From Burkholderiales bacterium (GTDB lineage: Bacteria; Pseudomonadota; Gammaproteobacteria; Burkholderiales; Ga0077523), in the NCBI GenBank assembly GCA_019747905.1, contig JAIEQG010000031.1, positions 1-64,000 of the forward strand: DNA of 64,000 bases. The letters run 5' to 3'. Below, piece by piece: positions 11,163-64,000 of the stretch. The notes under the pieces are model-generated. The model was given only the letters and a program-made list of their open reading frames with translations. It was not told the origin of the DNA and made no database searches. Positions within the stretch are counted from its first letter, which is position 1. Each line of letters starts with the position of its first letter. Both the position numbers and the translations under genes were made by a program.

Positions 11163-12332
11163 ATGCCGCGATCGTCCAATCGGCCGCGCAGTGCGGCGGG
11201 CAGCGAAACCAAGCGCCCGACCGGCAAACCGCGTGGCAAGCCGGCCCAGCCGCACCCTGCACCGCGCCCGAGCACCCGCAGCGAACCCGCGCGCCAGAAC
11301 CGCGACGGCGCGCCTGCGCGGACCACCCGACGCCGCCCGGACGAACCCGTCCCCGCGGGCCGGGCGCGCCCCGAACGCCCGGTCGTTCCGACCGCGCGCC
11401 GCAGCGCCGCTGCACCTCGCACCGAAACGGCGCCGCAGACACCCAGCGCTTCCCAGAAGCTGCAGAAGGTGCTGGCGCAGGCCGGCCTCGGCTCGCGCCG
11501 CGAGATGGAGGAGCTGATCCAGGGCGGCAAGGTGCTGGTGAACGGACAACCGGCGACGCTCGGCATGCGCGTCGAGCCCGACGACGAGGTGAAGGTCGGC
11601 AGGCGGCAGATCCGCTTCAAGCTATCCGCACGCTTGCCGCGCGTGATCATTTACCACAAGCCGGAAGGTGAGATCGTCACCCGCAGCGATCCGCAAGGAC
11701 GCACGAGCGTGTTCGAGAAGCTGCCCGTCATTCGCAGCGGCAAGTGGCTCGCCATCGGCCGCCTCGACTACAACACGTGCGGACTGCTCGTCTTCACGAC
11801 TTCGGGCGAGCTCGCGAACCGCCTCACCCACCCACGCTTCGAAGTGGAGCGCGAGTACGCGGTCCGCATCATGGGCGAAGTGAACGACGAGCAGGGGCGG
11901 GCCATGCTGCGCGGTGTGCAGCTGGACGATGGCGAAGCCCGGTTCGATCTGCTCGCCGCCCAGGGCGGTACCGGCAGCAATCACTGGTACCGCGTCGTCG
12001 TCCGCGAAGGCCGCAACCGGCTGGTGCGGCGCATGTTCGAGCACTTCGGCCTGCAGGTGAGCCGGCTCATGCGCGTGCGCTTCGGCATCATCAACCTGCC
12101 GCCGCGCCTCAAACGCGGGCAGCACCTCGAACTCACCGAAGCGCAGACCCGCAGCGTGCTGGAATGGCTCGCGCGCGGCGGCGAGCAGTTCGGCGACATC
12201 CCGCTGGCTCCACCGCCCGCCAAGCCGGCCAAACCCCCGGCCCGCGCGGCGCGGCCGGCCAAGAAGCCGTCACGCGCGCCGGCCCGGCCCGGCGGCACTA
12301 CTTCCGGAAGACCTCGACGAAGGTCGCGTTGA
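11163..12332 (+). CDS. rluB: 23S rRNA pseudouridine synthase, RluB type
   Basis: A pseudouridine synthase of the RsuA/RluB/RluE/RluF family, in E. coli the enzyme for position 2605 of 23S rRNA. Of its 389 residues, about 95 at the N-terminus are a Pro/Arg-rich disordered extension, followed by an S4 RNA-binding domain ('SQKLQKVLAQAGLGSRREMEE...', about 98-160) and the catalytic domain with 'GRLDYNTCGLLV', where the aspartate near 201 is the nucleophile. A second basic Pro/Ala/Lys tail follows residue 345. Such low-complexity tails are common in betaproteobacterial RluB. It starts 2 bases after recR, and its 3' end overlaps the convergent FecR gene by 35 bases. RluB rather than RsuA is chosen from the length and tails. 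Confidence 0.85.
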   Translation: MPRSSNRPRSAAGSETKRPTGKPRGKPAQPHPAPRPSTRSEPARQNRDGAPARTTRRRPDEPVPAGRARPERPVVPTARRSAAAPRTETAPQTPSASQKLQKVLAQAGLGSRREMEELIQGGKVLVNGQPATLGMRVEPDDEVKVGRRQIRFKLSARLPRVIIYHKPEGEIVTRSDPQGRTSVFEKLPVIRSGKWLAIGRLDYNTCGLLVFTTSGELANRLTHPRFEVEREYAVRIMGEVNDEQGRAMLRGVQLDDGEARFDLLAAQGGTGSNHWYRVVVREGRNRLVRRMFEHFGLQVSRLMRVRFGIINLPPRLKRGQHLELTEAQTRSVLEWLARGGEQFGDIPLAPPPAKPAKPPARAARPAKKPSRAPARPGGTTSGRPRRRSR

Positions 12333-13902
12333 AGCCGTTGGCGATGTCGCCGATGCAGCCCGCGGCCACGGCAGTACCGTAACCGTCGGTACCGGCAAGC
12401 CCGACGCTGACACCGCCCGTGTACGTCCCGCCCGTGCAGCCCACGCAGTTCACGGTCGAATAGTTGCCGAAGTAGTCGCCCAGACCGCCGCCGGCGTTGG
12501 GTCCGAGCATCGCGGTCACGTCGAACTTCTTGCCCAGCGCAGAGAGGAAGTCGATGGTCGCGCCGAAAGTCGCCTGCTGCGCACCGAAGTCGATGGTGAG
12601 CGATGCGTTGGTGACCGACCCGGTGTAGGCCTGGCCGCCGGAGTACGCCACGGCTCCCGGCCCGCCCGCGGGCGTGTAGGACACGATCCCGCTGGTCGGG
12701 AGGGCCTGCTGCACACCGGTGTTCACGTTGTTGGCGGTCGCGAACAACAGCGGAAAGCCGGTGAGAGTCTGGCCGTCGGACCCGGTGACCGTACCGCCCG
12801 CCCAGCGTCCCCACGTGACCACCGTGGACCCGTCCGTCAGGGTTCCTCGGTTGGTAATGGTGCCGCCGGCGATCGAACCGCTCACGCCCTGCGTGGACGT
12901 GAAGGCGATCAGGTTGCCGGCGCCGTCGTAGGTGCCTTCGGCCTCGCCGCCGAAATAGAAGTCGGTACCACCCGTGGGAAAGGGAAACGCCACGACGAAC
13001 CCATCGCGCGGGGGCAGCACGTCCGGTGCGCCGGCAGCATTCTTGTCTTCGGTCGCCGAGGTCTGGACGGCCCCGGCCGGAATGGGATTGGGCACGGTAG
13101 GCGGGCCGATGCGGATTGGTATCGGGCTCAATATCGGATCCGCAGTGACGACGGTGAGCGGCGGATCCGTCCTCGCCTCCGATGCCGCAGTGATCGATCC
13201 CTCATCGGTTTTCGCTGTCTCCGTCTTCGCGCTCTGCGATTGATTCGGCCCCCGCTTCTGACCTTCCAGACGATCGGCCAGGAACGCCGGAGGCACCAGG
13301 AGCTTCTCCACGCCGACATCGGGGCGCGGCGCAAAGAACGCCTCGCCCGCGATGAACTCGAACGCGCCCTTGTTGTTGCTTGCCGCCACCTTGCCCTCGG
13401 TGACCGCGCCATACAGACCATCCTTGGCCGCGGTGCCGTTGGCGTTGATGCACGAACCCGCCTCGCACAGTGCGAGCGAATAGGCCGTGCCACGGATGCC
13501 GATGGTCGCGACCGACGTGCGCACTTCGTAGTTCGCCCGGTTGGTCTTGCCGATCAATCCGCTGATGGTGCGGAAGCCGCCCTTCAGCAGCCGGTAGAAG
13601 GCCCGTTCGCTGCCGTCCTGCTGGCCGCTGAAGCGATACTGGTCGATGGCGAGGGTGGTGCGTTCCTTCAGCGCGACCACGCTTTCGTCGGTCATGCGGA
13701 CCTGGAGGTTGCTGCCGGTGCCGGTGCGCAGCACGTCGCGATCGTTGATCGGCGCCCCTGCCGCGAGCTTCACTTCCTTGCCGTCGCGAACCGCGACTGC
13801 GTCGCCCGCAGCCATGAGCACCCGACCTGCCGCTGCCTGAGCCATGGCCGGCACCAGCAGCACGAGGGCGATCGGGAGCCCAAAGCGAGAACTGAACTTC
13901 AT
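12298..13902 (-). CDS. FecR-domain secreted protein, candidate Slam cargo
   Basis: A 534-residue exported protein. A Sec signal peptide (residues 1-26, ending near 'AMAQAAA', no lipobox cysteine) is followed by a FecR domain (about 27-190), with 'NDRDVLRTGTGSNLQVRMTDESVVALKERTTL' and 'TIGIRGTAY' as its hallmarks. After a Pro-rich linker comes a Gly/Thr-rich beta domain (about 270-534) with 'GGTDFYFGGEAEG', 'VTWGRWAGG' and 'ASLTIDFGAQQATFGATIDF', which resembles the small C-terminal barrels of surface proteins such as TbpB. The gene lies 11 bases downstream of the Slam-like barrel gene, so the two are probably co-transcribed. The start is the ATG at 13902; the frame is open further but lacks coding character. 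The export role of the pair is inference. Confidence 0.75.
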   Translation of the reverse strand: MKFSSRFGLPIALVLLVPAMAQAAAGRVLMAAGDAVAVRDGKEVKLAAGAPINDRDVLRTGTGSNLQVRMTDESVVALKERTTLAIDQYRFSGQQDGSERAFYRLLKGGFRTISGLIGKTNRANYEVRTSVATIGIRGTAYSLALCEAGSCINANGTAAKDGLYGAVTEGKVAASNNKGAFEFIAGEAFFAPRPDVGVEKLLVPPAFLADRLEGQKRGPNQSQSAKTETAKTDEGSITAASEARTDPPLTVVTADPILSPIPIRIGPPTVPNPIPAGAVQTSATEDKNAAGAPDVLPPRDGFVVAFPFPTGGTDFYFGGEAEGTYDGAGNLIAFTSTQGVSGSIAGGTITNRGTLTDGSTVVTWGRWAGGTVTGSDGQTLTGFPLLFATANNVNTGVQQALPTSGIVSYTPAGGPGAVAYSGGQAYTGSVTNASLTIDFGAQQATFGATIDFLSALGKKFDVTAMLGPNAGGGLGDYFGNYSTVNCVGCTGGTYTGGVSVGLAGTDGYGTAVAAGCIGDIANGFNATFVEVFRK

Positions 13903-52152: not shown

Positions 52153-53114
52153 TCAAGCCGCTGGTTTGGCGGACAGCCGTGGAATCCAGCGCACATAGAC
52201 GAGCTCGCTCGCCAGCTCGATCACCGTCTGGGTGACGACTACGGCGGGAACAAGCGGTACCCCGCCCGGAACGGCAAAGGCGAGCGGGAGGATCACAAGC
52301 GAGTTACGCGTGGCGGCGCTGAACGCCACAGCCCGCGTGCCGCCAGCGTCGAGGCCGCTGGCGCGCGCGACCATCCAGCCGAGCATCGGCGCCACGACGG
52401 CATAGGCCAGGTAGATCGGCGCCGCGGTCAACGCCGCACCCGCGGCCCCTCCGATCTGCGGCGTGACGGCTGCAAGGACGAGGAAGAGCACGAGGGCCGT
52501 TGCCGGCACCGGCAGCAGGCGAGCGCCATCGAGGCGCGCTTGCCGGTCGCCGTCCGGGCCGCCCATAGCTGCAAGGCTGCGGCAAGCAGCAGCGGCGCGG
52601 CGATCAGCCACAAGAACGCATGGATGAAAGGCTCTGGATTGACGAGACCGGAGGCGTCGCCGCCGAGCAGCACGCGCAGATAGATCGGCAGCAGCGCCAT
52701 TTGCAACAAGAGGAGCACCGGGTTTCTGCCAGCGGGCGTGGCGTCCCCGCGCCCGAGATGCGTGAACGTCACCAGATAGTCGACGCACGGGGTCAGCAGC
52801 ACGAACAGGACTGCCAACCGCAGCATCGGCTCGTCGGGCAGGAACTGCCCCAGGATTGCCGTCAGCAGCGGCATGACCAGGAAGTTGGTCGCAAGCAGCG
52901 TGCTGAGGAAGCGCGTGTTCCGCAGCGCTGATCCGAGTTCCGCCAAAGGCACCTGGAGGAAAGTGACGAACAGCATGAACGCCAGAGCTGGATTGGTCGC
53001 AGCTTCGAGCGCCTCCGCGTTCGTCATGCCGAAGCCGGCGAACGCCCCAACGGCGATGGCCGCCAGGTAGAGTGCGATCTGCCGCTCCTCGAGCGCCGCT
53101 CGAACCCGCTCCAC
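52153..53114 (-). pseudogene. Arsenite/bile-acid-type permease, frameshifted
   Basis: Two overlapping frames together encode one protein of about 320 residues of the BASS/ACR3-like 'arsenic resistance protein' group. The first half (53114 to about 52540: 'MERVRAALEERQIALYLAAIAVGAFAGFG', 'FVLLTPCVDYLVTFTHLGRGDA') is in one frame; the second half (about 52515 to 52153: 'LLPVPATALVLFLVLAAVTPQIGG', 'AFSAATRNSLVILPLAFAVPGG') is in another. The shift falls at about 52515-52540 and equals loss of one base. Hydrophobic segments are continuous across both parts, nine or ten in all. It is a recent pseudogene or a sequencing error. Confidence 0.75.
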
Positions 53115-53118
53115 TCAT

Positions 53119-53508
53119 GTCTCCTTCCTTGCCGCCTCGGTTGCCCCGCCACTTGATGTCACGCCCCTTCTACCATGTCGGTCAAAAAGCGCGCGTGCGG
53201 CCTGGTTTCTTCCGCGTCCGATTGGCGGTGGCCTCCGCTCGGTGGGACTGATTGGCCAGCGCACCCGCCACATGCGAGTTCTGTTCAGAAGCGTGATTCA
53301 GAACATCGATGGACACTTGAATACCGAATCCAATGCTCGTGGAGTTCTGCCGGAGCTTAGGCGTAGCGCCGGGTTCAAAAGCGTGGAGGAGACGTCTTTC
53401 GTTCCAACGCCGAGCGGCTCGATCTCTCTCTCTCGCGGAATTTGTTTGTCGTGATGCGAGAGGTCCCAAGTGACGTCGAGTGACGGGGTTTTGTCACAGA
53501 CGTTCATT
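53119..53508. other. Gene-free stretch between permease remnant and merR
   Basis: 390 bases with no convincing open frame. Nothing resembling an RNA or a MerR-type operator was found in it. Confidence 0.45.
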
Positions 53509-53925
53509 TCACGGCCCGTCCGGATGACCGGGAGAGTCGGCGAGCACTTCGATGATCCGGCAAGTCGCGACTTGCCCGTTGTCGCACTCCTTAATCATCC
53601 TGGTGAGCTCGGCCCTAAGCCCGAGTAGCCGGCGAATCCGGCTCTCCACGGCTGCGAGTTGATCGGTCGCGATCCGGCTCACCTGCTCGCAGGATGCTTC
53701 TGGCACGTCCTGTAGACCAAGCATCATCTTGATAGCCCCGATGTCGAAACCGAGATCCCGGGCATGGCGGATGAACGCCAGTCGCCGAACGTCCTCCGCT
53801 CCGTAGAGACGTCGTCCACTGTCGGTCCGGGGCGGCGGAGGTACGAGCCTGATCCGCTCGTAATAGCGAATCGTCTCGATATTAACGCCCGTGCGTTTGG
53901 ACAAAGCTCCAATGGTGATCATCAT
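53509..53925 (-). CDS. MerR-family thiol metal sensor (ZntR/CadR/PbrR-like)
   Basis: A 138-residue MerR regulator. The winged helix-turn-helix is at residues 3-70 ('TIGALSKRTGVNIETIRYYERIRLVPPPPRTDSGRRLY'), followed by the dimerisation helix. Three cysteines, Cys79, Cys114 and Cys122, stand where MerR, ZntR, CadR and PbrR bind thiophilic metals, so Cd, Pb, Zn or Hg is the likely signal. The first of two adjacent ATGs is used; a leader of about 20 bases from the predicted promoter lacks a clear ribosome site. The gene is divergent from the ligase operon across the operator at 53929-53959 and probably controls that site and the two near 59.7 and 59.9 kb. Confidence 0.9.
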   Translation of the reverse strand: MMITIGALSKRTGVNIETIRYYERIRLVPPPPRTDSGRRLYGAEDVRRLAFIRHARDLGFDIGAIKMMLGLQDVPEASCEQVSRIATDQLAAVESRIRRLLGLRAELTRMIKECDNGQVATCRIIEVLADSPGHPDGP

Positions 53926-53928
53926 TAG

Positions 53929-53959
53929 TTGATTCTGTAGTGGCTACAGGATGTATAGC
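53929..53959 (+). promoter_or_regulatory. MerR-type promoter/operator 1 (ligase-CDF-P450 operon)
   Basis: -35 TTGATT (53929-53934), a 19-bp spacer and -10 TATAGC (53954-53959). The spacer starts with the dyad CTGTAG-TGG-CTACAG (53935-53949). An over-long 19-bp spacer with a dyad between the elements is the hallmark of MerR-activated promoters. It drives the plus-strand genes from 54094, after a leader of about 130 bases. Confidence 0.85.
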
Positions 53960-53980
53960 AACCGACCGGAGGTGTGTAAA
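53952..53980 (-). promoter_or_regulatory. Predicted merR promoter
   Basis: On the minus strand TTTACA (53975-53980), exactly 17 bp, then TATACA (53952-53957), a near-consensus sigma-70 promoter. Its -10 overlaps the -10 of promoter 1, and its start point should fall within the operator dyad, so MerR binding would repress its own gene, as in classic mer and znt systems. Confidence 0.7.
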
Positions 53981-54093
53981 CTCTGCCGACAAGTAAGGCG
54001 TTGGATAGGCCACCTCGATGCTTGATGCGTCGATCGAGGAAACAAACCTGGAACAGGCGAGGCGAGGCCCGGGATAACGAAAGGAGAAGGCTC

Positions 54094-55437
54094 ATGAGCC
54101 AGCATCCCCTGTGGGAATCCGCTTCTCGGGAGCCGGAGATGGTGAAGGAGCGGCTTGCCGATATCGTGGCTTTTGCGCGAGCCAACTCTCCTTACTATCG
54201 CGATTTGTACAAGGACCTGCCCGCGAGGGTCGAGGACCCCAGCCTGTTGCCCGTCACCGACAAGAAGACGCTTATGGCAAACTTCGATAGCTGGGTGACG
54301 GATCGCGAGGTCACGATTGAGCCCGTCCGCAAGTTTATCGAAGATCCGAGCCTCGTCGGCGAAAAGTTCCTCGGAAGATATACGGTCGCCACGACCGCTG
54401 GCACCACAGGCAACCCCGGCATCTTCGTATTGGATGACAATCACACACGAGGCGGGACAACAAGCCTTCGAGAAGCGTTTAGAACCTGGCTTTCGCTCGG
54501 GGATTTTGTAAGGATTGTTCTCCGCGGGGCGCGAATTGCTGCGCTGCACGCCACCGGGGGTCATTTCGTCTCGGTCACAAGTTTTACCCGGTGGCGACGC
54601 TCCATCCGCCTTTTGGCGAAACTCGCTCGGGATTTTTCGGTGCACACGCCGATGAAGGAACTCGTCGATCGCCTCAACGAGTTCCGGCCAGCCGTTGTCC
54701 TTGGCTACGCCTCTACCGTCTCTCTGCTCGCTCGCGAGCAGGAGCTTGGACGCTTGCATATAAAACCGGTGTTGCTGGTGCTGACGGCGGAAGGACTTGC
54801 GCCGGACGAGTACGGGCAGATCGCCAAGGCGTTCGACGCCAATGTCGGAAACGTGTGGGGTTCCACCGAAATCGCCGGCACGGCCTTCAGCTGCGCCGAG
54901 GGATGGCTTCACGTCGTCGGCGAATGGATCATGGTCGAGCCGGTCGACGCCGAATACCGCCCGGTGCCGCCCGGCGAGCAGTCGCACACCGTGCTCGTTA
55001 CCAATCTCGCCAACCGGGTACAGCCGATCTTGCGTTACGATCTCGGTGACCGTGTCCTGCAAAGGCCCGATCCTTGTCCTTGCGGCAATCCTCTGCCTGC
55101 TATCCGCATCCAGGGCCGCTCCGCCGAGGTCCTCCGTTTTCGGACCAAAGCCGGCGAGGAGGTCTCGATTCCGCCGCTGGCGTTCGAGATCGATCACGTG
55201 CCGGGAGTCGATCTGGCCCAAGTCGTGCAAACCACGTCGACGAATCTGCGCGTGCGCCTGCGCTTTGAGTCCGGCGCTGACGCCAACCAGGCTTGGCAAA
55301 AGGTGCACGGCGAATTGAAGCATTTGCTCGCCAGCCACGGACTTGACCAAGTGACGATCGAGCGTGCCGAGGAGCCGCCGGAACAGGGCCGCGGCGGGAA
55401 ATTCCGCCAGGTCATGCCGTTGGCTCAGTCAGGATAG
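54094..55437 (+). CDS. PaaK/CapK-like AMP-forming ligase
   Basis: A 447-residue adenylate-forming enzyme related to phenylacetate-CoA ligase (PaaK) and CapK. 'TVATTAGTTGNPGIFVL' is the phosphate loop, 'NVWGSTEIAGTAFSC' is motif A5-like, 'PILRYDLGDRVLQ' is the A7 motif with the ribose Asp, and 'GRGGKFRQV' near the end holds the catalytic Lys. A strong AAGGAGAAGG site precedes the ATG at 54094. It probably activates a carboxylic acid as its adenylate and passes it to CoA or another acceptor; the substrate is unknown. As first gene of a MerR-controlled operon that also holds a fatty-acid P450, an acyl or hydroxy-acyl substrate is a fair guess. Confidence 0.78.
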   Translation: MSQHPLWESASREPEMVKERLADIVAFARANSPYYRDLYKDLPARVEDPSLLPVTDKKTLMANFDSWVTDREVTIEPVRKFIEDPSLVGEKFLGRYTVATTAGTTGNPGIFVLDDNHTRGGTTSLREAFRTWLSLGDFVRIVLRGARIAALHATGGHFVSVTSFTRWRRSIRLLAKLARDFSVHTPMKELVDRLNEFRPAVVLGYASTVSLLAREQELGRLHIKPVLLVLTAEGLAPDEYGQIAKAFDANVGNVWGSTEIAGTAFSCAEGWLHVVGEWIMVEPVDAEYRPVPPGEQSHTVLVTNLANRVQPILRYDLGDRVLQRPDPCPCGNPLPAIRIQGRSAEVLRFRTKAGEEVSIPPLAFEIDHVPGVDLAQVVQTTSTNLRVRLRFESGADANQAWQKVHGELKHLLASHGLDQVTIERAEEPPEQGRGGKFRQVMPLAQSG

Positions 55438-55475
55438 CCGGCCGATCCAGGCAAGAAATCTGAAGGAGAGCCGTC

Positions 55476-55667
55476 ATGAAAGAAGTCGCCAAATTCCTTG
55501 CCGGATTTGCAGCCAACCAGGTGCTCACGCATGGAGCCTTAGCCACTGCCGGCATTCAGTTCAGTCTGTTTGGGATCACCTACGACCAGCGGTTTAACAC
55601 GATCGCTGTTGTCGTTTGGGCGATCATTCTTCTTCTGCTCATCTACTACGCCTGGGCCAGGAGATGA
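55476..55667 (+). CDS. Small membrane protein
   Basis: A 63-residue protein with a strong GAAGGAG site. The N-terminal half is amphipathic ('KEVAKFLAGFAANQVLTHGALATAGI'), and the C-terminal half is one transmembrane helix ('NTIAVVVWAIILLLLIYYAW') followed by a short basic tail. No family recognised. It lies between the ligase and the CDF exporter in the MerR-controlled operon and may be an accessory subunit or a membrane-targeting factor for either. Confidence 0.65.
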   Translation: MKEVAKFLAGFAANQVLTHGALATAGIQFSLFGITYDQRFNTIAVVVWAIILLLLIYYAWARR

Positions 55668-55715
55668 CGAGCACGGCTCAATACGGCGTGCCTTTAAGAG
55701 AGCCGGACGTGAACC

Positions 55716-56342
55716 ATGCCAGGTGACGAAGAGACAGAGATCCGCCTTGATGCCCGCAATGTCGACGAACGACGCACGCTGCGCTGGGTACTCGGGATTA
55801 ACTTCACACAGGTTCTGGTTGCCGGTGCCGTCGGCATTCTGGCGGACTCCACAGGCCTCCTAGGTGCTGCTCTCGACAATCTGGGGGACGCCGCGGTTTA
55901 TGCGGTCAGCCTCTACGCGGTCGGCCATACGGCAATTGCCAAGGCTCGTGCGGCGAACCTTTCCGGCATTCTTCTGATCGTACTTGCTTTCGGATTGCTT
56001 ATAGAAGTCTTACGTCGGTTTTTCGCGGGAGCGGAGCCAATCGGGCTCGCCATGATTGTCACGGCGCTCGCGAACGCGGCGACCAACGTGGTCTGCCTTC
56101 GACTCTTGCGAGCTCATCGAACGCATGGTGTGCACTTCAAAGCGTCGTGGATTTTTACGACCAACGACATGGTGGCCAACGCGGGCATCGTCCTATCTGG
56201 TCTGTTCGTCATGCTTCTGAAGTCTCCCGTCCCCGATCTCGTGATCGGGGTTGTGGTCGTCGGAATCGTCCTCAAAGGCGGGTGGGAGATTCTCAAGGAG
56301 GCGCGCGAAGCCCGCGATTCCGCACAGGGAGATAGAGGATGA
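55716..56342 (+). CDS. Cation diffusion facilitator exporter (CDF family)
   Basis: A 208-residue, mainly membrane protein with about six hydrophobic segments. The metal-site signatures of CDF exporters are visible: in TM2 'LLGAALDNLGDAAVYAVSLYAVGH' (Asp pair spaced by four) and in TM5 'FKASWIFTTNDMVANAGIVLSG' (Asn-Asp). The usual C-terminal cytosolic metal-binding domain is missing, which is common in a short subgroup. It should export Zn, Cd or similar ions in exchange for protons. Part of the MerR-controlled operon; its stop overlaps the small ORF that follows. Confidence 0.85.
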   Translation: MPGDEETEIRLDARNVDERRTLRWVLGINFTQVLVAGAVGILADSTGLLGAALDNLGDAAVYAVSLYAVGHTAIAKARAANLSGILLIVLAFGLLIEVLRRFFAGAEPIGLAMIVTALANAATNVVCLRLLRAHRTHGVHFKASWIFTTNDMVANAGIVLSGLFVMLLKSPVPDLVIGVVVVGIVLKGGWEILKEAREARDSAQGDRG

Positions 56343-56446
56343 CCAAAGGTCTCCTGTGGGCCCGTAACCAGGCGTTTGTCTCTACGAGGCCGGAGGATCT
56401 CGCCGAACGTGATTTGGAGAGCCGCAATGCACCGGATTCCGCGTGA
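56339..56446 (+). CDS. Possible 35-residue coupling ORF
   Basis: An ATG overlaps the CDF stop (ATGA) behind a GGAG site and opens a 35-codon frame ('MTKGLLWARNQAFVSTRPED...') that ends 19 bases inside the P450 gene. It has no recognised homology. It may be a short coupling peptide that carries ribosomes to the P450 start, or it may be chance. No codon statistics were computed. Confidence 0.3.
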   Translation: MTKGLLWARNQAFVSTRPEDLAERDLESRNAPDSA

Positions 56447-57671
56447 CAGAACCCTAGATTCGACGATCGCCCTAATGGGTGATCCCTATAGATTTATCTC
56501 AAATCGGTGTCGACGCTACCGATCGGACCTGTTCGAAACGCGGCTTCTCCTGCGGAAGACCATCTGTATGACGGGTCCGGAAGCGGCCCGGCTTTTCTAC
56601 GATCCGAGCCGCTTCGTGCGCCGCGGTGCGATGCCTAAAGCCGTCCAGAAGACCTTGCTGGGAGTGGGCGGCGTGCAGGGCCTCGACGACGAAGCGCACC
56701 GGCAGCGCAAGCAGATGTTCATGTCGCTGATGACGCCTGAGCGGATCGAGCAGCTGGTGCAGTTGACGGCGGCCGAGTGGGAGATCCGCGCGCACGGCTG
56801 GACAGCCATGGGCGAGGTGTCGCTCTATCCGGAACTTCACTCGCTTCTAACACGCGCGGCCTGCGCCTGGGCGGGGGTGCCACTGGCGGATTCGGAGGTC
56901 GACGCGCGGACCCGGGAGATTGCTGCGTTGTTCGACCATGCCGGTTCGGTCGGATTGAGGCATTTCTGGTCGCGGTGGGCGCGAAAGCGGGCCGACGGCT
57001 GGGCGGCGGACATCGTCGAACAGATTCGTGGCGGCCGTATCCATCCACCGGAGCAGTCGGCCGCCCACGTCATCGCGTGGCATCGGGATCTGAACGGTGA
57101 GCTGCTGACGCCCCAAATCGCCGCTGTCGAGTTGATCAATGTGATCAGGCCGACAGTTGCCGTCTCGGTCTACATGGTCTTTGTCGCACATGCATTGCAC
57201 GCGCATCCCAAGGTTCGAGAGATGCTTCAAGCCGGAGATGACGGCTACGTCGGCCGCTTCGTCCAAGAGGTTCGCCGGTACTACCCCTTCTTCCCGGCAG
57301 TCGCTGCACGGACGCGCCAAGCCTTCGAATGGAACGGATACCACTTCTTGGCAGGACGACGTGTTCTCCTAGATCTATACGGCACCAACCAGGACCCGCG
57401 AACCTGGGAGAGACCGGAGGACTTCGAGCCCGAGCGATTCCGTCGATCGGATGAGAGTCCATTCGATTTCATCCCACAGGGCGGTGGGGATCACCACGTT
57501 GATCATCGCTGTCCCGGCGAATGGATCGCAATCGAACTCATGAAGCAGGCAGCGGATTTCCTTACGCGGCGAATGAGCTACGATGTGCCGGAGCAAGACC
57601 TGCGCATCGAATGGTCGCGGCTACCCGCATTGCCACATAGCCGGTTCGTGATTAGCAATGTGAGAATGTGA
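56427..57671 (+). CDS. Cytochrome P450, CYP152-type fatty acid peroxygenase
   Basis: A 414-residue P450 whose features match CYP152 (P450 BSbeta, SPalpha), enzymes that use H2O2 to hydroxylate or decarboxylate fatty acids without reductase partners. The heme Cys362 sits in 'GGGDHHVDHRCPGEW', and the acid-pairing Arg241-Pro242 is in 'IRPTVAVSVYMVF', one off from the Arg242, Pro243 and Cys363 I recall for BSbeta. 'HRQRKQMFMSLMTPERI' and 'DLYGTNQDPRTW' are also family marks, and the usual I-helix acid-Thr pair is absent. The ATG at 56427 follows GGAGAG. Last gene of the operon. A fatty-acid peroxygenase under metal control is odd and points to lipid chemistry or peroxide use under metal stress. 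Confidence 0.88.
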   Translation: MHRIPRDRTLDSTIALMGDPYRFISNRCRRYRSDLFETRLLLRKTICMTGPEAARLFYDPSRFVRRGAMPKAVQKTLLGVGGVQGLDDEAHRQRKQMFMSLMTPERIEQLVQLTAAEWEIRAHGWTAMGEVSLYPELHSLLTRAACAWAGVPLADSEVDARTREIAALFDHAGSVGLRHFWSRWARKRADGWAADIVEQIRGGRIHPPEQSAAHVIAWHRDLNGELLTPQIAAVELINVIRPTVAVSVYMVFVAHALHAHPKVREMLQAGDDGYVGRFVQEVRRYYPFFPAVAARTRQAFEWNGYHFLAGRRVLLDLYGTNQDPRTWERPEDFEPERFRRSDESPFDFIPQGGGDHHVDHRCPGEWIAIELMKQAADFLTRRMSYDVPEQDLRIEWSRLPALPHSRFVISNVRM

Positions 57672-57745
57672 AAGAGAATGGAAGCCGGGAATTGCCTCCA
57701 TAGCATGCATCCAACCTCACGGCCGATTCCACACTTCGCCGCCGC

Positions 57746-58294
57746 CTAGCGGTTCCCCGCCAGCATCAGGACCGCGGCGAGCACATAGGTGAAGACCAGC
57801 GGCGCGGCGGTCAGGGCCATTCCGAAGGCACGGGCGATTGGGCTCGCCGCATAGCCGATTGCGAACGCCGCCCGGCCGACGAGGTAAACCACGACCAGTA
57901 AGGGGATCAGGACGAGCTCTGAATCTCGCACGACGACGGCCAGAATGAGATGCGCTCCCAGCGTTAGCATGGTCTGCTCAAGCGAATTCTGAAGAATGGC
58001 CGCGCGTAAGGCGATCGCCGGTCTGGGAGGCCCGAATGCCGAGCCCTTGCGGTCCGCTGGAGTCCAGAAGCGGGCCTGCGACACCGCACCGACGCAGCCG
58101 GCCAGCCACAGGAAGATCAACAAATCCCATTTGAGAGCAAATGCGAGGCGATCACCCACCGCCGTCGTGCCGACGACGCCGACGACCTCGGGCGGCAACC
58201 ACAGGTACCCGGCGCCCAGCACCGCCACAGCGAAAAGCACTGCAAGGGCGCTTTGCCAGACAATGCTCCATTGCTCGCGGTCAAAGGACATCAT
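57746..58294 (-). CDS. MAPEG-like membrane protein
   Basis: A 182-residue integral membrane protein with four hydrophobic segments. 'AAILQNSLEQTMLTLGAHLILAVV' and 'LLVVVYLVGRAAFAIGYAASPIARAFGMALT' match the MAPEG fold (membrane-associated eicosanoid and glutathione metabolism proteins), with the Asn-x-x-Glu-Gln of the helix 2 motif. Bacterial members are mostly uncharacterised; some conjugate glutathione or reduce lipid peroxides. The gene starts inside the antiporter stop (ATGA) and is therefore controlled by operator 2. It converges with the P450 gene, 74 bases apart. Confidence 0.72.
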   Translation of the reverse strand: MMSFDREQWSIVWQSALAVLFAVAVLGAGYLWLPPEVVGVVGTTAVGDRLAFALKWDLLIFLWLAGCVGAVSQARFWTPADRKGSAFGPPRPAIALRAAILQNSLEQTMLTLGAHLILAVVVRDSELVLIPLLVVVYLVGRAAFAIGYAASPIARAFGMALTAAPLVFTYVLAAVLMLAGNR

Positions 58295-59577
58295 GATTCC
58301 TTCTCGTGGAGCCAGTCTGAATCTCTCGCCTCAGATGCACGTTTCTCGGCTGCAGCCTCTAAGATCTGGTGCGGCCGAAGGGTGGTCAGGACGATCTGCG
58401 CCAGCCCGTTCACATTCGCTGCGACAACGACCACGGTGAGCGCGAGATAGACCCAGCCGAGCCAGGTGAGCGTCCGGATCGTCAACGCGTCATCTTCGCG
58501 GAAGCTGAACGCGAGTCCTACCTGAGCGCTGAACAGCACAGCGAGCGTGAGCGCCCCAATAAGACCGAGCCGCAGGCGCAGCAGCAGTGCCAGCCCGAAT
58601 AACGACTGGGCGGCTGTGAGGAAAAACTCCTCGTGTTGACGGGCATCAAGCGGGAGCGCCATGAGGTTGCCGGCGCCGACGCTCATCGCCAGCGGCAGCA
58701 TCGCCACTAGCAAGGTCCACTGGTTGATCTTATCGCTGATCATCGTCGTGAGGCCGGCAACAGCTCGGTTCGACAGGACGAACAGGATCGCGACTGTGAC
58801 GGCGGGCGCTTCACTCGCGAGCGGCGCAAGCCACTGGATGAGCAGGAACTCGTCGATCCCGAGCACACGCCCGGAGTCAACCATCGCTTCGGCGAACGGT
58901 TCGGCAGAGAGGAAGATGACGGCGCCCGCTACCACGGCTAGCCCGATCATCAACGCCCATTGCTGCCCCGGGGGCAGCTGTTCGATTTCAGCGGCAAGCC
59001 CGGGCTCCTCCTGCTCGTCCCTAGCTTTCGGCAACTTTGTCACTCGCCACAGGTAAAGCGCGAATATTCCGACCAGCACCGCCGCATCGAGCGGTGCGAT
59101 GCTGTCCTTGAGCAGAATCGTGAAGGCATAGAGGCTTGGCAGCAGCAGAAAGACGATCTCGACGCTGTTGACCGGCGCGAGTGAGATCGCCCTGTTCCGC
59201 GAGCGCCACCAGTGGAGGAGCACCAGCAGCGGCCAGGCCATTCCAACGAGCAGCCGGTTTGCGCCCGTCATGTTGGCTGCGGCATAGTGGACGTAGTTAG
59301 ACTGCGGCGCCTGCCCAGCGCGCCAGGCGTAATAGATATCTACCGCATATTCGGGCAGCACGGTGATGATCGCGACCACCGCAAGGATCAGACCGGCTGA
59401 AATCTGCCCCTCCGCAGTCTCCGCCCCCCAGGAGAGCATGAAACCCGCCGCGAGGATCGCTATACCGAAGACCGCCGCGTCCAGGATCGGATCGGGCCGC
59501 CAGCCGACCGCCCGAAAATAGATCGCCGGAACGACGGCGAGGATTGCAATCGCGATCGATATCCGGAGATTTCGCAC
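58291..59577 (-). CDS. CaCA-family cation antiporter
   Basis: A 428-residue protein with about eleven hydrophobic segments and the two alpha-repeats of the Ca2+:cation antiporter superfamily: 'GAETAEGQISAGLILAVVAIITVLPEYAVDIYYA' with 'AANMTGANRLLVG', and 'LAPLASEAPAVTVAILFVLSNRAVAGLTTMISDKINQWTLLVAMLPLAM'. A charged cytosolic loop (about 182-205) separates the halves. It should exchange a divalent cation for Na+ or H+. Its start is about 140 bases downstream of MerR-type operator 2, which points the right way, so it is probably metal-induced together with the MAPEG gene. Confidence 0.85.
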   Translation of the reverse strand: MRNLRISIAIAILAVVPAIYFRAVGWRPDPILDAAVFGIAILAAGFMLSWGAETAEGQISAGLILAVVAIITVLPEYAVDIYYAWRAGQAPQSNYVHYAAANMTGANRLLVGMAWPLLVLLHWWRSRNRAISLAPVNSVEIVFLLLPSLYAFTILLKDSIAPLDAAVLVGIFALYLWRVTKLPKARDEQEEPGLAAEIEQLPPGQQWALMIGLAVVAGAVIFLSAEPFAEAMVDSGRVLGIDEFLLIQWLAPLASEAPAVTVAILFVLSNRAVAGLTTMISDKINQWTLLVAMLPLAMSVGAGNLMALPLDARQHEEFFLTAAQSLFGLALLLRLRLGLIGALTLAVLFSAQVGLAFSFREDDALTIRTLTWLGWVYLALTVVVVAANVNGLAQIVLTTLRPHQILEAAAEKRASEARDSDWLHEKES

Positions 59578-59714
59578 GTTGGCTTCTCCTCAGCGTCTGC
59601 CCGGTCGGTTTGGTTCCAAACCCGCAATGTATTTCGCGATTTCCCGAGGACTCAACATGCTTTCCCATCGCTGTGTGGCAGCTCGCGCCACGTGCCTCCG
59701 CGATCTGATTCGCT

Positions 59715-59745
59715 CGATTACATCCTGTAGCCACTACAGGATCAA
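59715..59745 (-). promoter_or_regulatory. MerR-type promoter/operator 2 (antiporter-MAPEG)
   Basis: On the minus strand: -35 TTGATC (59740-59745), a 19-bp spacer containing the same dyad CTGTAGTGGCTACAG, and -10 TAATCG (59715-59720). Identical spacer length and dyad to operators 1 and 3; it reads toward the CaCA antiporter. Confidence 0.8.
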
Positions 59746-59918
59746 CCATCATGGCCCCGACCGAAAAAGCTTTCTGAACGTACGGCCTTGCGAGAGGCCT
59801 CTCTGGGGACAGGTGACGACTTGGCCAAGATAATGCGCCGTGAAGGATGCTGGCCGGGACCTGCGACTGACGCGCGGGCGTCATGGCCGAAAGGCCAGAG
59901 TTCAATTTCGCAGAACCC

Positions 59919-59949
59919 TTGATTCTGTAGTGGCTACAGGAGATATGGT
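59919..59949 (+). promoter_or_regulatory. MerR-type promoter/operator 3 (metal ATPase operon)
   Basis: -35 TTGATT (59919-59924), a 19-bp spacer with the dyad CTGTAGTGGCTACAG (59925-59939), and -10 TATGGT (59944-59949). It lies about 50 bases upstream of the P-type ATPase start. About 175 bases separate it from the oppositely directed operator 2, with no gene between. Confidence 0.85.
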
Positions 59950-60000
59950 CCCTGCGGAGACCAGGCACCGAAGTTCAGATCGCGACCGTAGGAGAGAATG

Positions 60001-63000
60001 ATGAAAGTTGGTTCTGCGACGCTCAGCCCTGCGAGCTCGCTGCGCTTCAAAGTCGACGGCCTGGATTGCCAGAACGAGGTTCGCGCACTTCGCGCCGCGG
60101 TGGGGCCGTTTGTCGGCGGCGACGATAAGCTGTCATTCAATACTCAAGCCGGTGTCATGGAGGTGATGTCCGACAGTGCTCTGACGGTTGACGCCATCCA
60201 GCGGGCGGTGGCGACGACTGGCATGCAAGCGCATCTCCTGGGGGAGCCGGCGCAGCCTGGACCGGCGCTGCTGTTCCGCGTCGAAGGACTCGATTGCGAG
60301 AATGAGGTCGCGGCGCTCAAGCGTGAGATAGGTCCGCTGGTCGGTGGCGACGCTTGGCTGATGTTTGACACCGCGAACGGGCTCATGACCGTGGCCTCGC
60401 AGCGACAGGCGTCCGTCGACGATATCATCAGCCGCGTCGTCTCGACCGGCATGCGTGCTTTCCTTGTTGAGGATGGCGCCGCGGAAGCATTGATCTTCCG
60501 AGTCCATGGTCTCGACTGCAAGAACGAGGTGGCGGCCCTCACGCGGGAACTGGGTCCGCTCGTCGGCGCGGACAAACTGGCCTTCGACACCACGCAAGGC
60601 GCGATGACCGTGGCCCCTCAGAACCGGACGGCGCCCGACGTGATCGAACAAGCCGTGGCGCGAACGGGCATGCGCGCCGAGCCGTGGATGCCGCCGGCGG
60701 TCTCGTCCCCTGTGTCCGAGCCCTCCAGTAGGCCTGAAGATATGACGTGCGGCTGTGCCGCAGAGGTGCAGGAGGCACTCAGTCCGCCGATCCCGACCCG
60801 CTTGCCGGGCCAGATTGTGTTCCGCATTCACGGCATGGACTGTGCCGACGAGATCGCGGCGTTGAAGCGCGAGGTTGGTCCGCTTGTTGGGGAAGACAAG
60901 CTCGCCTTCGATCTTCTCAACGGCCGCATGTCGATCGACGTGGTGCCGAATGCCGCGCTCGAAGCCCGAGTTGAGAAGGCCGTCGCTCGTGCTGGTCTGC
61001 GCGCCGAGCCCTGGAGTGAAGGCAATACCAGCGAGGCCGCGCTGGCCGAAGAGCGTCGCAAGCAGGTGCAGTCGTGGCTGACAACCGCAAGCGGCGTTCT
61101 CACGGCGCTCGGCTTTGCGGTCCACGCCTGGCTTGGGGGCGGTGTCATCGCGGCCTTCGAAGCAGGCGAACACGCGTTGGGCTCGACACCGTTGCCGAGC
61201 ATGGTTCTTTATGCGGTCGCGGTACTCTGCGCGGCGCGCTACGTCGCGCCCAAGGCTTGGCTCGCGGCCAAGCGGCTTCGCCCCGACATGAATCTGTTGA
61301 TGATGGTTGCGGTCGCGGGCGCGATTGGCATCGGCGCCTGGTTCGAGGCTGCTACTGTTTCGTTCTTTTTTGCGTTAGCGCTGGCGCTTGAGGCTTGGAG
61401 TCTTGGTCGCGCGCGCCGGGCGGTTGCCGCCCTCATGGAACTCGCGCCGCCGACTGCACGTGTCAAGCTTGAAGACGGCTCCGAGCGCGAGGTCTCGGCG
61501 GCCGAGGTTCGGGTCGGCGCGCGCATCATCGTCCGGCCAGGAGACAAGGTGCCGCTTGACGGCCGGGTCGCCGCTGGCGAGAGCGAGGTCAATCAAGCAC
61601 CGATCACCGGTGAAAGCGTCCCCGTGTTTAAGGTAGAAGGCGACGACGTCTTTGCCGGCACCATCAACGGCGAGGGCGCAATTGAGGTCGTGACCACCAA
61701 GGCGGCGAACGACACGACCCTCGCCCAGATCATCCGCATGGTCGGTTCCGCACAGAGCCGGCGCGCGCCCAGCGAGCAATGGGTGGAGAAGTTCGCGCGC
61801 GTCTACACGCCTGCGGTGATGGTGCTCGCCGTTGCAATCTTTCTTGCTCCGCCACTGCTCTTGGGCGGTGCCTGGGACGTTTGGTTCTACCGCGCTCTCG
61901 TGCTCCTCGTGATCGCTTGCCCCTGCGCCCTCGTGATCTCGACGCCCGTGACGATCGTGGCGGCACTTGCCGGCGCAGCGAAACAGGGTGTCCTGGTGAA
62001 GGGCGGCGCCCATCTCGAAACGCCTGCGCACCTCAAAGCCATTGCCATGGACAAGACGGGCACGCTCACCGAAGGGCGGCCGCAGGTCGTTGAGATAGTG
62101 CCACTTGTTGGCCGCAGCGAAAGGGAGCTCCTCGGCTTGGCCGCGGCTCTGGAGGCGCGCAGCGCACATCCGATCGCTCGCGCCATCCTGGCGAAAGCCG
62201 CCGAACTGAACATCGCCGCCGAGCCTGCCGAGGCTGTCCAAGCCATCACTGGCCGAGGCGTCACCGGTCGAGTGGCCGGCCGCGAGATGTGGCTCGGCTC
62301 GCGCCGCTACATTGAGGAGCGGGGCATCGACTCAGCTGAAGTACTACAGCGCGCCGATGCGCTTTCGAGCGCCGGGCGCACTATCGTCGCGGTCGGCGTT
62401 GGTCAGGACGTCTGGGGGCTCGTCGCCGTTGCAGATGCTGTCAGGCCGGAAGCGAAAGACATTGTCACGGCGCTTCACCGCGCCGGGATCGAACACGTGG
62501 TGATGCTCACGGGGGACAACCGCGCAACGGCGGAGGCGATTGCGAAGCAGACGGGCATTGACGAGGTTCGGGCGGAACTTCTGCCCGGCGACAAGGTGGC
62601 CGCGGTCGAGGATTTGGTGCGGCGCTACGGATCGGTGGCGATGGTCGGCGACGGAGTCAACGATGCTCCCGCGATGGGCCGGGCCAATCTCGGTATCGCG
62701 ATGGGCGCCATGGGCAGCGACGCCGCAATCGAAACGGCCGATGTCGCACTGATGTCAGACGACCTGTCGAAGCTCTCTTGGCTAGTGCGCCACTCGCGCG
62801 CGACGCTCGCAGTGATCCGGCAGAACGTTGCGTTTTCAATCTTCGTGAAGCTCGTGTTCACGGCGCTGACCGTGGTTGGTCTCGCATCGCTGTGGGGCGC
62901 CATCGCGGCCGACGTCGGCGCATCGCTGCTGGTCGTTCTCAACGGCCTACGCCTCCTCAATCGTGGTCAGACGACGCTTGAGCGGGGTGGTCCTTCAGCC

Positions 63001-63066
63001 GGATCTGGTGTTCCGGCCCGTGTGCATCATGAGTCCACAGTCGCTGCGGTACGCCCGGCGCGCTGA
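60001..63066 (+). CDS. P1B-2-type Zn/Cd/Pb ATPase with four degenerate HMA domains
   Basis: A 1021-residue metal-exporting P-type ATPase, long for a bacterial ZntA/CadA (about 700-730). The N-terminal 340 residues hold four tandem HMA-like repeats with Cys23, Cys99, Cys173 and Cys281, each in a G(L/M)DCxxE motif: the second metal Cys is replaced by Glu. A Cys250-x-Cys252 pair lies in the linker before the fourth. The ATPase core follows: 'CPC' (640-642) in the membrane, 'DKTGTLT' with the phosphorylated Asp684, 'SAHPIARA', 'GDGVNDAPAM', and the final helices with Lys and Asp ('FSIFVKLVF', 'IAADVGASLL') typical of P1B-2. ATG at 60001 is better spaced from GGAG than the ATG just before it. Driven by operator 3. 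Confidence 0.93.
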   Translation: MKVGSATLSPASSLRFKVDGLDCQNEVRALRAAVGPFVGGDDKLSFNTQAGVMEVMSDSALTVDAIQRAVATTGMQAHLLGEPAQPGPALLFRVEGLDCENEVAALKREIGPLVGGDAWLMFDTANGLMTVASQRQASVDDIISRVVSTGMRAFLVEDGAAEALIFRVHGLDCKNEVAALTRELGPLVGADKLAFDTTQGAMTVAPQNRTAPDVIEQAVARTGMRAEPWMPPAVSSPVSEPSSRPEDMTCGCAAEVQEALSPPIPTRLPGQIVFRIHGMDCADEIAALKREVGPLVGEDKLAFDLLNGRMSIDVVPNAALEARVEKAVARAGLRAEPWSEGNTSEAALAEERRKQVQSWLTTASGVLTALGFAVHAWLGGGVIAAFEAGEHALGSTPLPSMVLYAVAVLCAARYVAPKAWLAAKRLRPDMNLLMMVAVAGAIGIGAWFEAATVSFFFALALALEAWSLGRARRAVAALMELAPPTARVKLEDGSEREVSAAEVRVGARIIVRPGDKVPLDGRVAAGESEVNQAPITGESVPVFKVEGDDVFAGTINGEGAIEVVTTKAANDTTLAQIIRMVGSAQSRRAPSEQWVEKFARVYTPAVMVLAVAIFLAPPLLLGGAWDVWFYRALVLLVIACPCALVISTPVTIVAALAGAAKQGVLVKGGAHLETPAHLKAIAMDKTGTLTEGRPQVVEIVPLVGRSERELLGLAAALEARSAHPIARAILAKAAELNIAAEPAEAVQAITGRGVTGRVAGREMWLGSRRYIEERGIDSAEVLQRADALSSAGRTIVAVGVGQDVWGLVAVADAVRPEAKDIVTALHRAGIEHVVMLTGDNRATAEAIAKQTGIDEVRAELLPGDKVAAVEDLVRRYGSVAMVGDGVNDAPAMGRANLGIAMGAMGSDAAIETADVALMSDDLSKLSWLVRHSRATLAVIRQNVAFSIFVKLVFTALTVVGLASLWGAIAADVGASLLVVLNGLRLLNRGQTTLERGGPSAGSGVPARVHHESTVAAVRPAR

Positions 63067-63105
63067 TCATGGCGTCCGGAAGCTAGATTATGAGGACGTA
63101 TTGAC

Positions 63106-63690
63106 GTGCAATCTGGAACCTTGCTTGGACGAGCTGCGCTGGCTGGCGCCGCCCTTGCCATCGCTCTCACTATCGACTTCGTCACGAAATGGCTCATCGT
63201 CAACGTTGTGATGGTCCCGCCGCACACGATCGAGATCGCACCATTTTTCAATCTCATGGTTGGTTTCAACACGGGTGTCAGCTTCGGGATGTTCCAAGAG
63301 CTCTTCGTCGATCGCCCACTGTTGCTCGCCGCGCTCATGGCGACGATTGCGGCGGGACTGTTCGTCTGGGCCCTGCGAACGACAAGGCGCATCGAGACAT
63401 TCGCCCTAGGTCTGATTGCTGGCGGCGCTGCCGGCAATGTGGTGGACCGGGTGCGTCACGGTGCGGTGATCGATTTCCTCGACCTCCACGTTGGCGATTG
63501 GCACTGGCCCGCCTTCAACATGGCGGACGTCATGATTACAGTAGGCGTCGTCCTGCTGATCACGGGCTCCCTTTGGCCGGCGCGATCGACGGTCTCGATT
63601 GACGAGAGGCCAGCAGATCGAGATTCAAGCGTTCGACCTCACAGCAAAAATGAACAGGAAAGGACCATTCCATGTCAGACACACCGATGA
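63106..63690 (+). CDS. lspA: Signal peptidase II (metal-operon paralogue)
   Basis: Lipoprotein signal peptidase of 194 residues with four transmembrane segments. The catalytic aspartates are Asp114 in 'GGAAGNVVDRVRHGAVIDF' and Asp141 in 'WPAFNMADVMITVG'; 'FNTGVSFGMF' matches the conserved Asn-Gly loop. The start is GTG. Extra lspA copies in Pb/Cd/Zn resistance operons are known (pbrB-type), which fits its place right after the ATPase. The last 40 residues are polar and overlap the start of the next gene by 19 bases. Confidence 0.88.
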   Translation: MQSGTLLGRAALAGAALAIALTIDFVTKWLIVNVVMVPPHTIEIAPFFNLMVGFNTGVSFGMFQELFVDRPLLLAALMATIAAGLFVWALRTTRRIETFALGLIAGGAAGNVVDRVRHGAVIDFLDLHVGDWHWPAFNMADVMITVGVVLLITGSLWPARSTVSIDERPADRDSSVRPHSKNEQERTIPCQTHR

Positions 63691-64000
63691 CCGCCCCTCA
63701 ATCGAGAGCCTCAGGTATGTTGTGCCCTCACTGCAAGATCGATCTCGTCATGGCGGATCGCCAGGGTATCGAGATCGACTATTGCCCCACTTGCCGGGGT
63801 GTCTGGCTCGATCGGGGCGAACTCGATAAAATCATCGAGCGTAGCGCCGCACATGACGCGCCTGCACCCGCACCACAAGGGATGCGCCCGCAGGACAACT
63901 ACCCGAACCAAGGCGGCCGCTATGACCAAGGCGGCTACGGTCGTCGCGATGATTGCGATGACCGCGGGCACCGGGGCCGCCGAGGGTTCCTTGGACAGCT
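63672..64000 (+). CDS. Zinc-ribbon (zf-TFIIB) protein, partial
   Basis: The first 109 codons of a gene cut by the window end. The ATG at 63672 follows GGAAAGGA. A zinc ribbon with Cys18-x2-Cys21 and Cys38-x2-Cys41 ('MLCPHCKIDLVMADRQGI' and 'YCPTCRGVWLDRGELDKII') matches the zf-TFIIB family, followed by a Gly/Arg/Asp-rich low-complexity tail. Function unknown; members often lie beside metal or envelope genes. It overlaps lspA, so it belongs to the same operon. Confidence 0.75.
   Translation, partial: MSDTPMTAPQSRASGMLCPHCKIDLVMADRQGIEIDYCPTCRGVWLDRGELDKIIERSAAHDAPAPAPQGMRPQDNYPNQGGRYDQGGYGRRDDCDDRGHRGRRGFLGQ

Follow-up and report, generated by a model that had tools for sequence, protein, structure and literature searches.

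We analysed a stretch of 64,000 nucleotides from a Burkholderiales bacterium (GenBank assembly GCA_019747905.1, contig JAIEQG010000031.1, positions 1 to 64,000, termed the window), the end of which holds a predicted metal-response island beside a gene for a MerR-family regulator (merR, 53509..53925, minus strand, 138 aa). A preliminary description of this DNA had claimed that this single sensor is wired to the island by three matching operators. Exact copies of the dyad CTGTAGTGGCTACAG are indeed found where it had placed them, at 53935-53949 (plus strand), 59725-59739 (read on the minus strand) and 59925-59939 (plus strand), and the 4.9-Mb assembly has no other exact copy. All three lie directly behind a TTGAT(T/C) -35 box, in the same orientation relative to it, and the gap between -35 and -10 is 19 bp in each case. 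Moreover, each promoter faces a gene set of its own, as had been described. P1 (53929..53959, plus strand; -35 TTGATT, -10 TATAGC) is divergent from merR and faces an operon for a PaaK-like ligase, a 63-aa protein, a CDF transporter and a CYP152-family P450. P2 (59715..59745, minus strand; -35 TTGATC, -10 TAATCG) faces the genes for a sodium/calcium exchanger-family protein and a MAPEG-family protein, and P3 (59919..59949, plus strand; -35 TTGATT, -10 TATGGT) those for a CadA/ZntA-type ATPase, LspA and a Zn-ribbon protein. P1 and P3 have the complete layout of MerR-controlled promoters, in which the dyad is centred in a spacer of 19-20 bp between sigma70-like -35 and -10 boxes. The preliminary description had also assigned an A/T-rich -10 to all three promoters, which agrees with P1 and P3 but not with P2, whose TAATCG is a poor -10. 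The start codon of merR is 3 bp from the -35 box of P1 (53925-53934), so that the merR mRNA may be nearly leaderless and a promoter of its own would overlap the dyad.

In the window, eight matches to CTGTAGTGGCTACAG were found at up to three mismatches, six of which are the three sites counted on both strands, whereas 100 shuffled windows averaged 0.57 and never exceeded 3. The whole assembly (4,915,534 bases in 164 contigs, 91.5% complete) has the three exact copies, none with one mismatch and two with two mismatches. A reversed control dyad, however, is as frequent as the true dyad at up to one mismatch (2+1) and commoner at up to three (233+255 versus 28+18). Loose dyad counts were therefore dropped as evidence, and it is the exactness of the three dyads and their promoter context that rule out a chance origin. 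The 23-bp pattern of -35 plus dyad, TTGATNCTGTAGTGGCTACAGNA, has three matches in the assembly at up to two mismatches, whereas the reversed control has none. Across 369 genomes (this one included), the same pattern matches two others, once each, and so does the reversed control; both of the outside matches to TTGATNCTGTAGTGGCTACAGNA adjoin other MerR genes, 41% and 40% identical.

We compared the window with seven loci (169,838 bp in total) from records that hold a MerR 68-90% identical to its own. These are a Rhodospirillales metagenome-assembled genome (85%), Chelativorans intermedius (90%), Sphingobium pF1 (84%), Agrobacterium pAt3 (78%), Sphingorhabdus (68%), Bosea AS-1 (83% and 70% in two pieces) and Agrobacterium pAtCFBP6624 (76%, with merR located elsewhere on the plasmid). 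A scan for TTG followed by the arms CTGTAG-NNN-CTACAG, allowing two arm mismatches, recovered 17 sites, 14 of them with at most one mismatch, whereas a block-shuffled control gave 4 sites in 3,396,760 bp. Two of the 17 (Bosea 4202 and Rhodospirillales 19501) are at other merR genes and were left out of the regulon. A site of the form TTGATY-CTGTAG-NNN-CTACAG (TTGCTT in one case) precedes CadA-LspA in all seven relatives, and a site, once with one arm mismatch, precedes the PaaK operon in both relatives that have it. In Chelativorans, the P3 counterpart is identical from the -35 through the dyad with different flanks, and the P1 counterpart (9846) heads ligase-ligase-63-aa-CDF-CYP152. The P1 counterpart of the Rhodospirillales genome (7489, one mismatch) is altered and precedes a DUF6639 gene; separate sites there lie before a methyltransferase gene (6329, one mismatch), ligase-ligase-63-aa (8523) and CadA-LspA-CDF (11888). 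Bosea has sites before MAPEG (12079), CadA-LspA-CDF (12807) and the methyltransferase (25971). On pAtCFBP6624, a two-mismatch site precedes CYP152-MAPEG (8839), and the matching place on pAt3 has CTATAGCCGCTACAG behind a degenerate -35. Counted at up to one mismatch and away from other merR genes, the Rhodospirillales genome has four operators and Bosea three, as many as the window. Beside merR itself, Bosea has no clear dyad, and in Sphingobium the exact dyad has lost its outward -35 and is not followed by a ligase, as expected if autoregulation persists. The operators stand before the same genes in rearranged order across the relatives and thus move together with them; nothing speaks more strongly for the predicted regulon being real. 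A further operator-like site of the Rhodospirillales locus (2229, two mismatches) precedes a gene whose open reading frame looks, by eye, like that of a TRAP-like transporter.

The regulator has cysteines solely at positions 79, 114 and 122, in keeping with the preliminary description, and all three are retained in five out of five relatives' regulators whose metal-binding loop could be read through. Its best-scoring solved chain is CadR (6jgv). Like CadR and PbrR, it has Cys79 and two C-terminal cysteines, the gap between Cys114 and Cys122 being one residue longer than in 6jgv. Among the NCBIfam models, CadR-PbrR scores best (105.9 bits), followed by MerR (103.1) and CueR (101.6). Because these scores are nearly equal and the loop is longer than that of CadR, we rejected naming the metal from the cysteine loop. 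The sites are of the 21-bp type with their centre 7 bp from the -35, a geometry that CueR shares, and fit the rule given in PMC5045206. Alignment of the recognition helix by the conserved RYYE segment places Glu14 and Arg21 in the window MerR, the residues which that paper reports for sites of such kind. Every MerR regulator of divalent metals examined to date is reported to need Cys79 (PMC3431237) and, since this residue is kept, a divalent metal is likely to be sensed here as well.

The first gene behind P1 encodes a PaaK/F390-synthetase-like adenylate-forming ligase (54094..55437, plus strand, 447 aa). Its structural model (mean predicted local distance difference test score, pLDDT, 87) matches PaaK-family structures with a Foldseek probability of 1.00 (4rvn, E 2e-24) and also PaaK1, ClxA, NatL2 and a 2-hydroxyisobutyryl-CoA ligase; TM-scores are modest (0.5-0.6) and identity to the matched structures is about 20%. 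It reaches the cut-off of none of the NCBIfam models that it matches, and Pfam gives no match. Lys436, which we take to be the catalytic lysine, is invariant in 35 of 35 aligned sequences, and the model is consistent with an ANL fold with a C-terminal lysine. The ligase is followed by the 63-aa protein (55476..55667, plus strand), which has a C-terminal hydrophobic stretch and whose gene adjoins the ligase in the Rhodospirillales and Chelativorans loci and CYP152 in a further one (L042), and by the CDF (cation efflux) transporter (55716..56342, plus strand, 208 aa). The last gene of the set, for the P450 (56427..57671, plus strand), has as its closest solved structure the fatty acid alpha-hydroxylase 3awm, to which the protein aligns from end to end (E 3e-161) including the heme-cysteine region; it scores 579 bits with the CypC model, just below the cut-off of 600. 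It is predicted to be an H2O2-driven fatty-acid hydroxylase, a full-length match to the P450SPalpha/CypC (CYP152) peroxygenases, yet sited in a predicted metal regulon. It is tempting to note that the predicted 2-hydroxylating P450 has as its neighbour a member of an enzyme family to which a 2-hydroxyacid-CoA ligase belongs.

Behind P2 lie the exchanger-family protein (58291..59577, minus strand, 428 aa) and the MAPEG-family membrane protein (57746..58294, minus strand, 182 aa). P3 is followed by the CadA/ZntA-type P1B ATPase (59998..63066, plus strand, 1022 aa) with four N-terminal HMA-like repeats, LspA, the signal peptidase II (63106..63690, plus strand, 194 aa), and a small TFIIB-type Zn-ribbon protein (63672..64000, plus strand), whose gene extends to contig position 64010. 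The HMA-like repeats (59998-61100) have single-cysteine DC-x-N/D-E motifs (GLDC-NE, GMDCADE) and not CxxC. On the other side of merR, an S-adenosylmethionine (SAM) methyltransferase is left as a remnant of 61 C-terminal residues, 69% identical (53257..53439, plus strand). In the Rhodospirillales genome, its gene is open over 221 aa and has an operator to itself, and Bosea has a match to it that likewise follows an operator; it seems to be a regulon member that has decayed in the window. Upstream of it, the frame of a bile-acid-symporter-like (SBF) transporter gene (about 52153-53118, minus strand) is broken, and an open reading frame at 52428-53114 matches Pfam SBF over no more than residues 42-183.

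The accessory genes of the island are under purifying selection. The ratio of nonsynonymous to synonymous substitution rates (dN/dS) is 0.09-0.17 for merR, the 63-aa gene (0.14-0.16), CDF and CadA when compared with both the Rhodospirillales and the Chelativorans locus, for CYP152 against Chelativorans and for the ligase against Rhodospirillales. Of the 13 gene comparisons, 11 gave a synonymous rate (dS) of 0.33-0.87 and two gave one of 1.4-1.6. Chelativorans has a second ligase copy (11448-12794), the middle segment of which is not alignable in frame, owing to an assembly error or decay.

The preliminary description had regarded several of the regulated genes as not normally metal genes, a view that the plasmid records turn round. 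We viewed 13 of the 115 plasmid records matching CYP152, taken from the best-scoring rows (54-78% identity) and not at random, and in 12 of them metal transporters, metalloregulators or mer genes are near CYP152. Stanieria has no metal genes near it, and the assignment of Skermanella rests on LspA and a CDF fragment. For the ligase, 13 of the 83 matching plasmid records were viewed, from the upper rows. Nine of the 12 with annotation have an ArsR-type metalloregulator, a P-type ATPase or CadD within about 5 kb of it (Rubrobacter twice, Mycolicibacterium, Arthrobacter twice, Pseudarthrobacter, Pseudonocardia, Metabacillus and Cytobacillus); Bradyrhizobium CB82, Haloarcula and Phenylobacterium were counted as being without a metal neighbourhood. 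On the Phenylobacterium zucineum plasmid, however, a ligase relative and a CDF are each behind a MerR-type promoter with a CueR-like dyad of the CTCTAGCGGCTTGAG type (9873, 18849, 18892), and no relative of the window MerR was found in the stretch. The plasmids on which PaaK-like or CYP152 genes adjoin metal pumps or ArsR-type regulators include those of Actinomycetota, Bacillota and one planctomycete. Moreover, CYP152 and LspA are within 5 kb of each other in 10 of the 15 records listed for both, where random placement expects 1.0 (best places only), and in 8 of 13 against 0.9 when two near-copies are removed. Since they recur beside metal pumps in many of the viewed plasmids, the PaaK-like ligase, CYP152, MAPEG and LspA look like overlooked metal-island genes rather than strays. 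We found no literature linking CYP152 or other P450, F390-synthetase or peroxygenase enzymes with metals among open-access papers.

The closest known systems are the CadR/PbrR regulons, such as pbr of Cupriavidus metallidurans and the PbrR2-controlled cadA-pbrC. They share with the window a Cys79-containing MerR-type sensor, a dyad in a 19-bp spacer and a P1B ATPase together with a signal peptidase II gene (PMC3431237; PMC1526738). As in the pbr operon, the P1B ATPase is followed by LspA (PbrC), but no PbrB-type phosphatase is fused or adjacent to LspA, and BacA/UppP is found about 3 kb further on. In pbr, the phosphatase supplies the phosphate that precipitates Pb, and some reports suggest that its maturation or activity requires PbrC (PMC3431237). 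In the survey of PMC5045206, 172 CadR-PbrR regulators have 174 sites between them and 100 CadR-PbrR-like ones have 110, about one site per regulator, whereas the window has three, reaching a ligase, a P450 and MAPEG, and in relatives the methyltransferase. The predicted regulon thus differs from textbook cad and pbr in the number of its operators and in its recurring lipid-, lipoprotein- and methyl-transfer genes. Plasmid clusters of Rhizobiales, Rhodospirillales and Rhodobacterales likewise have CDF, LspA and CYP152 together, with the exchanger in most (and CcdA), but an ArsR/SmtB-type (CmtR-type) regulator, not MerR, is annotated beside CDF; no full-length PaaK-like ligase was found in them, where L038 has a 43-residue match and L077 was judged by annotation only. 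Actinobacterial plasmid clusters (Arthrobacter FB24 and AK-1, Pseudarthrobacter, Pseudonocardia) have the order ArsR, P-type ATPase, LspA, CadD and PaaK-like ligase. They share the metal ATPase, LspA and the ligase with the window, and in FB24 and Pseudonocardia a P450 as well, but their regulator is of the ArsR type and their ligase is 48-51% identical to that of the window.

Past the window, downstream of CadA-LspA-Zn-ribbon, the contig continues with a DagK/YegS-like lipid kinase, MgtC, an insertion sequence transposase and BacA/UppP (64187-67616). This set brings further envelope-lipid genes next to the island. At the contig end (69211-71612), TrbI and CagX-type genes for conjugation suggest an integrative conjugative element; a LysR gene lies there on the opposite strand. 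On the other flank, as far as about 50 kb, there are what by eye seem to be chromosomal genes, namely flagellar ones, glnD and map. The dyad at up to one mismatch is absent from all 11 genomes of the same genus (64-99% complete). Given the conjugation genes, the chromosomal flank and this absence, the island is probably an acquired, conjugative element.

We consider it probable that the predicted MerR sensor binds the three dyads and switches on the predicted metal pumps together with putative lipid and lipoprotein enzymes. Distortion of promoter DNA is established for activators of the MerR family. Bound to the identical dyads in the 19-bp spacers of P1, P2 and P3, the regulator would untwist the promoters on binding metal. 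CadA, the CDF and perhaps the exchanger would export metal, while LspA, CYP152, the PaaK-like ligase and MAPEG would serve the upkeep and repair of envelope lipids and lipoproteins under metal-caused peroxide stress, with CYP152 hydroxylating fatty acids at the expense of H2O2 and the ligase activating a carboxylic acid as an AMP or CoA ester. Activity is likely for P1 and P3 and less sure for P2. We take the whole for a CadR/PbrR-like regulon with several operators, well supported at P1 and P3 and plausible at P2. The single-sensor regulon of the preliminary description is well supported where sites recur at the same genes in relatives, at P1 and P3, and weaker at P2, although MAPEG has a site in Bosea.

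Several observations weigh against this explanation. The regulator reaches the cut-off of none of the NCBIfam equivalogs that it matches, not even that of the best one (CadR-PbrR, TIGR02047, cut-off 151.45). The -10 of P2 is poor and departs from the TATGGT-like -10 typical of most CadA sites in the relatives, none of which carries the exchanger-MAPEG pair, so that P2 has no orthologous comparison. Among the seven relatives, the ligase is present in the Rhodospirillales and Chelativorans loci only, and CYP152 was not found in the viewed stretches of Rhodospirillales, Sphingobium, Bosea and Sphingorhabdus. LspA (0.24-0.29) and the divergent ligase paralogue scored in Chelativorans (0.21) have a higher dN/dS than the other genes. 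More distant relatives do not have the island either. When the class was scanned for the ligase, 369 genomes (this one included) yielded 3 others that have it, at 38-41% identity; for CYP152, scanned across the order, 399 genomes yielded 4 others, at 45-57%. Island genes are around none of these four chromosomal CYP152 genes and, save for a weak P-type ATPase match in L065, around none of the three ligases, two of which are on short contigs; in a scan of genome contigs with the ligase (three loci), L012 holds no island gene besides it. The metal link is thus strong for the viewed plasmid-borne closer relatives and absent for the distant ones, and the lipid enzymes are therefore optional. Finally, a scan of other loci (581,667 bp) gave seven sites with the same arms, most of them at mer or other merR genes.

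On a simpler view, which we regard as unlikely, this is an ordinary CadR/PbrR-type cadA-lspA regulon, in which only P3 and autoregulation of merR through the P1 dyad matter, while the genes for the ligase, P450, CDF, exchanger and MAPEG are carried along as passengers. CadA-LspA is the sole target common to all eight loci, the window and its seven relatives, the Sphingobium dyad beside merR is compatible with a role in autoregulation, and PbrR2 is believed to control a cadA and a pbrC homologue (PMC3431237). Passengers, however, would hardly account for the Rhodospirillales operator (8523), which stands ahead of the ligase operon in a different location, some 1 kb away from merR, nor for the further operators before MAPEG and the methyltransferase elsewhere. 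The accessory genes are moreover under purifying selection, and they are found next to metal genes again where the regulators are unrelated and of the ArsR type. It is considerably less probable still that real dyads are read in the main by a different MerR protein, or by more than one. Such arms are also used by other MerR proteins, for example at mer operons, and the dyad alone therefore does not name its sensor; in addition, a further regulator could be missing from an assembly that is 91.5% complete. Against this, the dyad abuts the window merR, and of the six MerR_1 matches in the genome, this protein among them, the sole other metal-sensor-like one of those read (L056) has CueR-type residues with a lysine at position 14, while three (L053, L055, L058) are unlike metal sensors and one (L057) is not readable. 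That the three copies are a functionless product of recent duplication or chance is the least credible explanation. In its favour, identical 15-mers could be young copies and the reversed control is as frequent at up to one mismatch; against it, the flanks of the three window sites differ from one another, every site has the promoter spacing specific to the family, and the same block is kept in relatives despite the dS values given above.

A broader idea may be put forward tentatively, and we lean somewhat against it. Bacteria of several phyla might share a second, so far overlooked arm of metal resistance, a kit for remodelling the envelope that is made up of CYP152 as an H2O2-consuming fatty-acid hydroxylase, a ligase that activates acids, LspA and, in many cases, a methyltransferase. 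The kit would be coupled to any sensor available, which is MerR in the window, ArsR/SmtB in Actinomycetota and Bacillota, and one with CueR-like dyads in Phenylobacterium. As genes change place in the present island, one MerR would extend its operator to each of the parts. Were this true, resistance to toxic metals would cover regulated remodelling of lipids and lipoproteins, beyond export, and for many plasmid genes annotated as "phenylacetate-CoA ligases" and "cytochrome P450s" there would be a function to test. A MerR regulon would, moreover, be able to grow by seeding one operator before several operons, in contrast to the roughly one site per regulator of the CadR/PbrR survey (PMC5045206).

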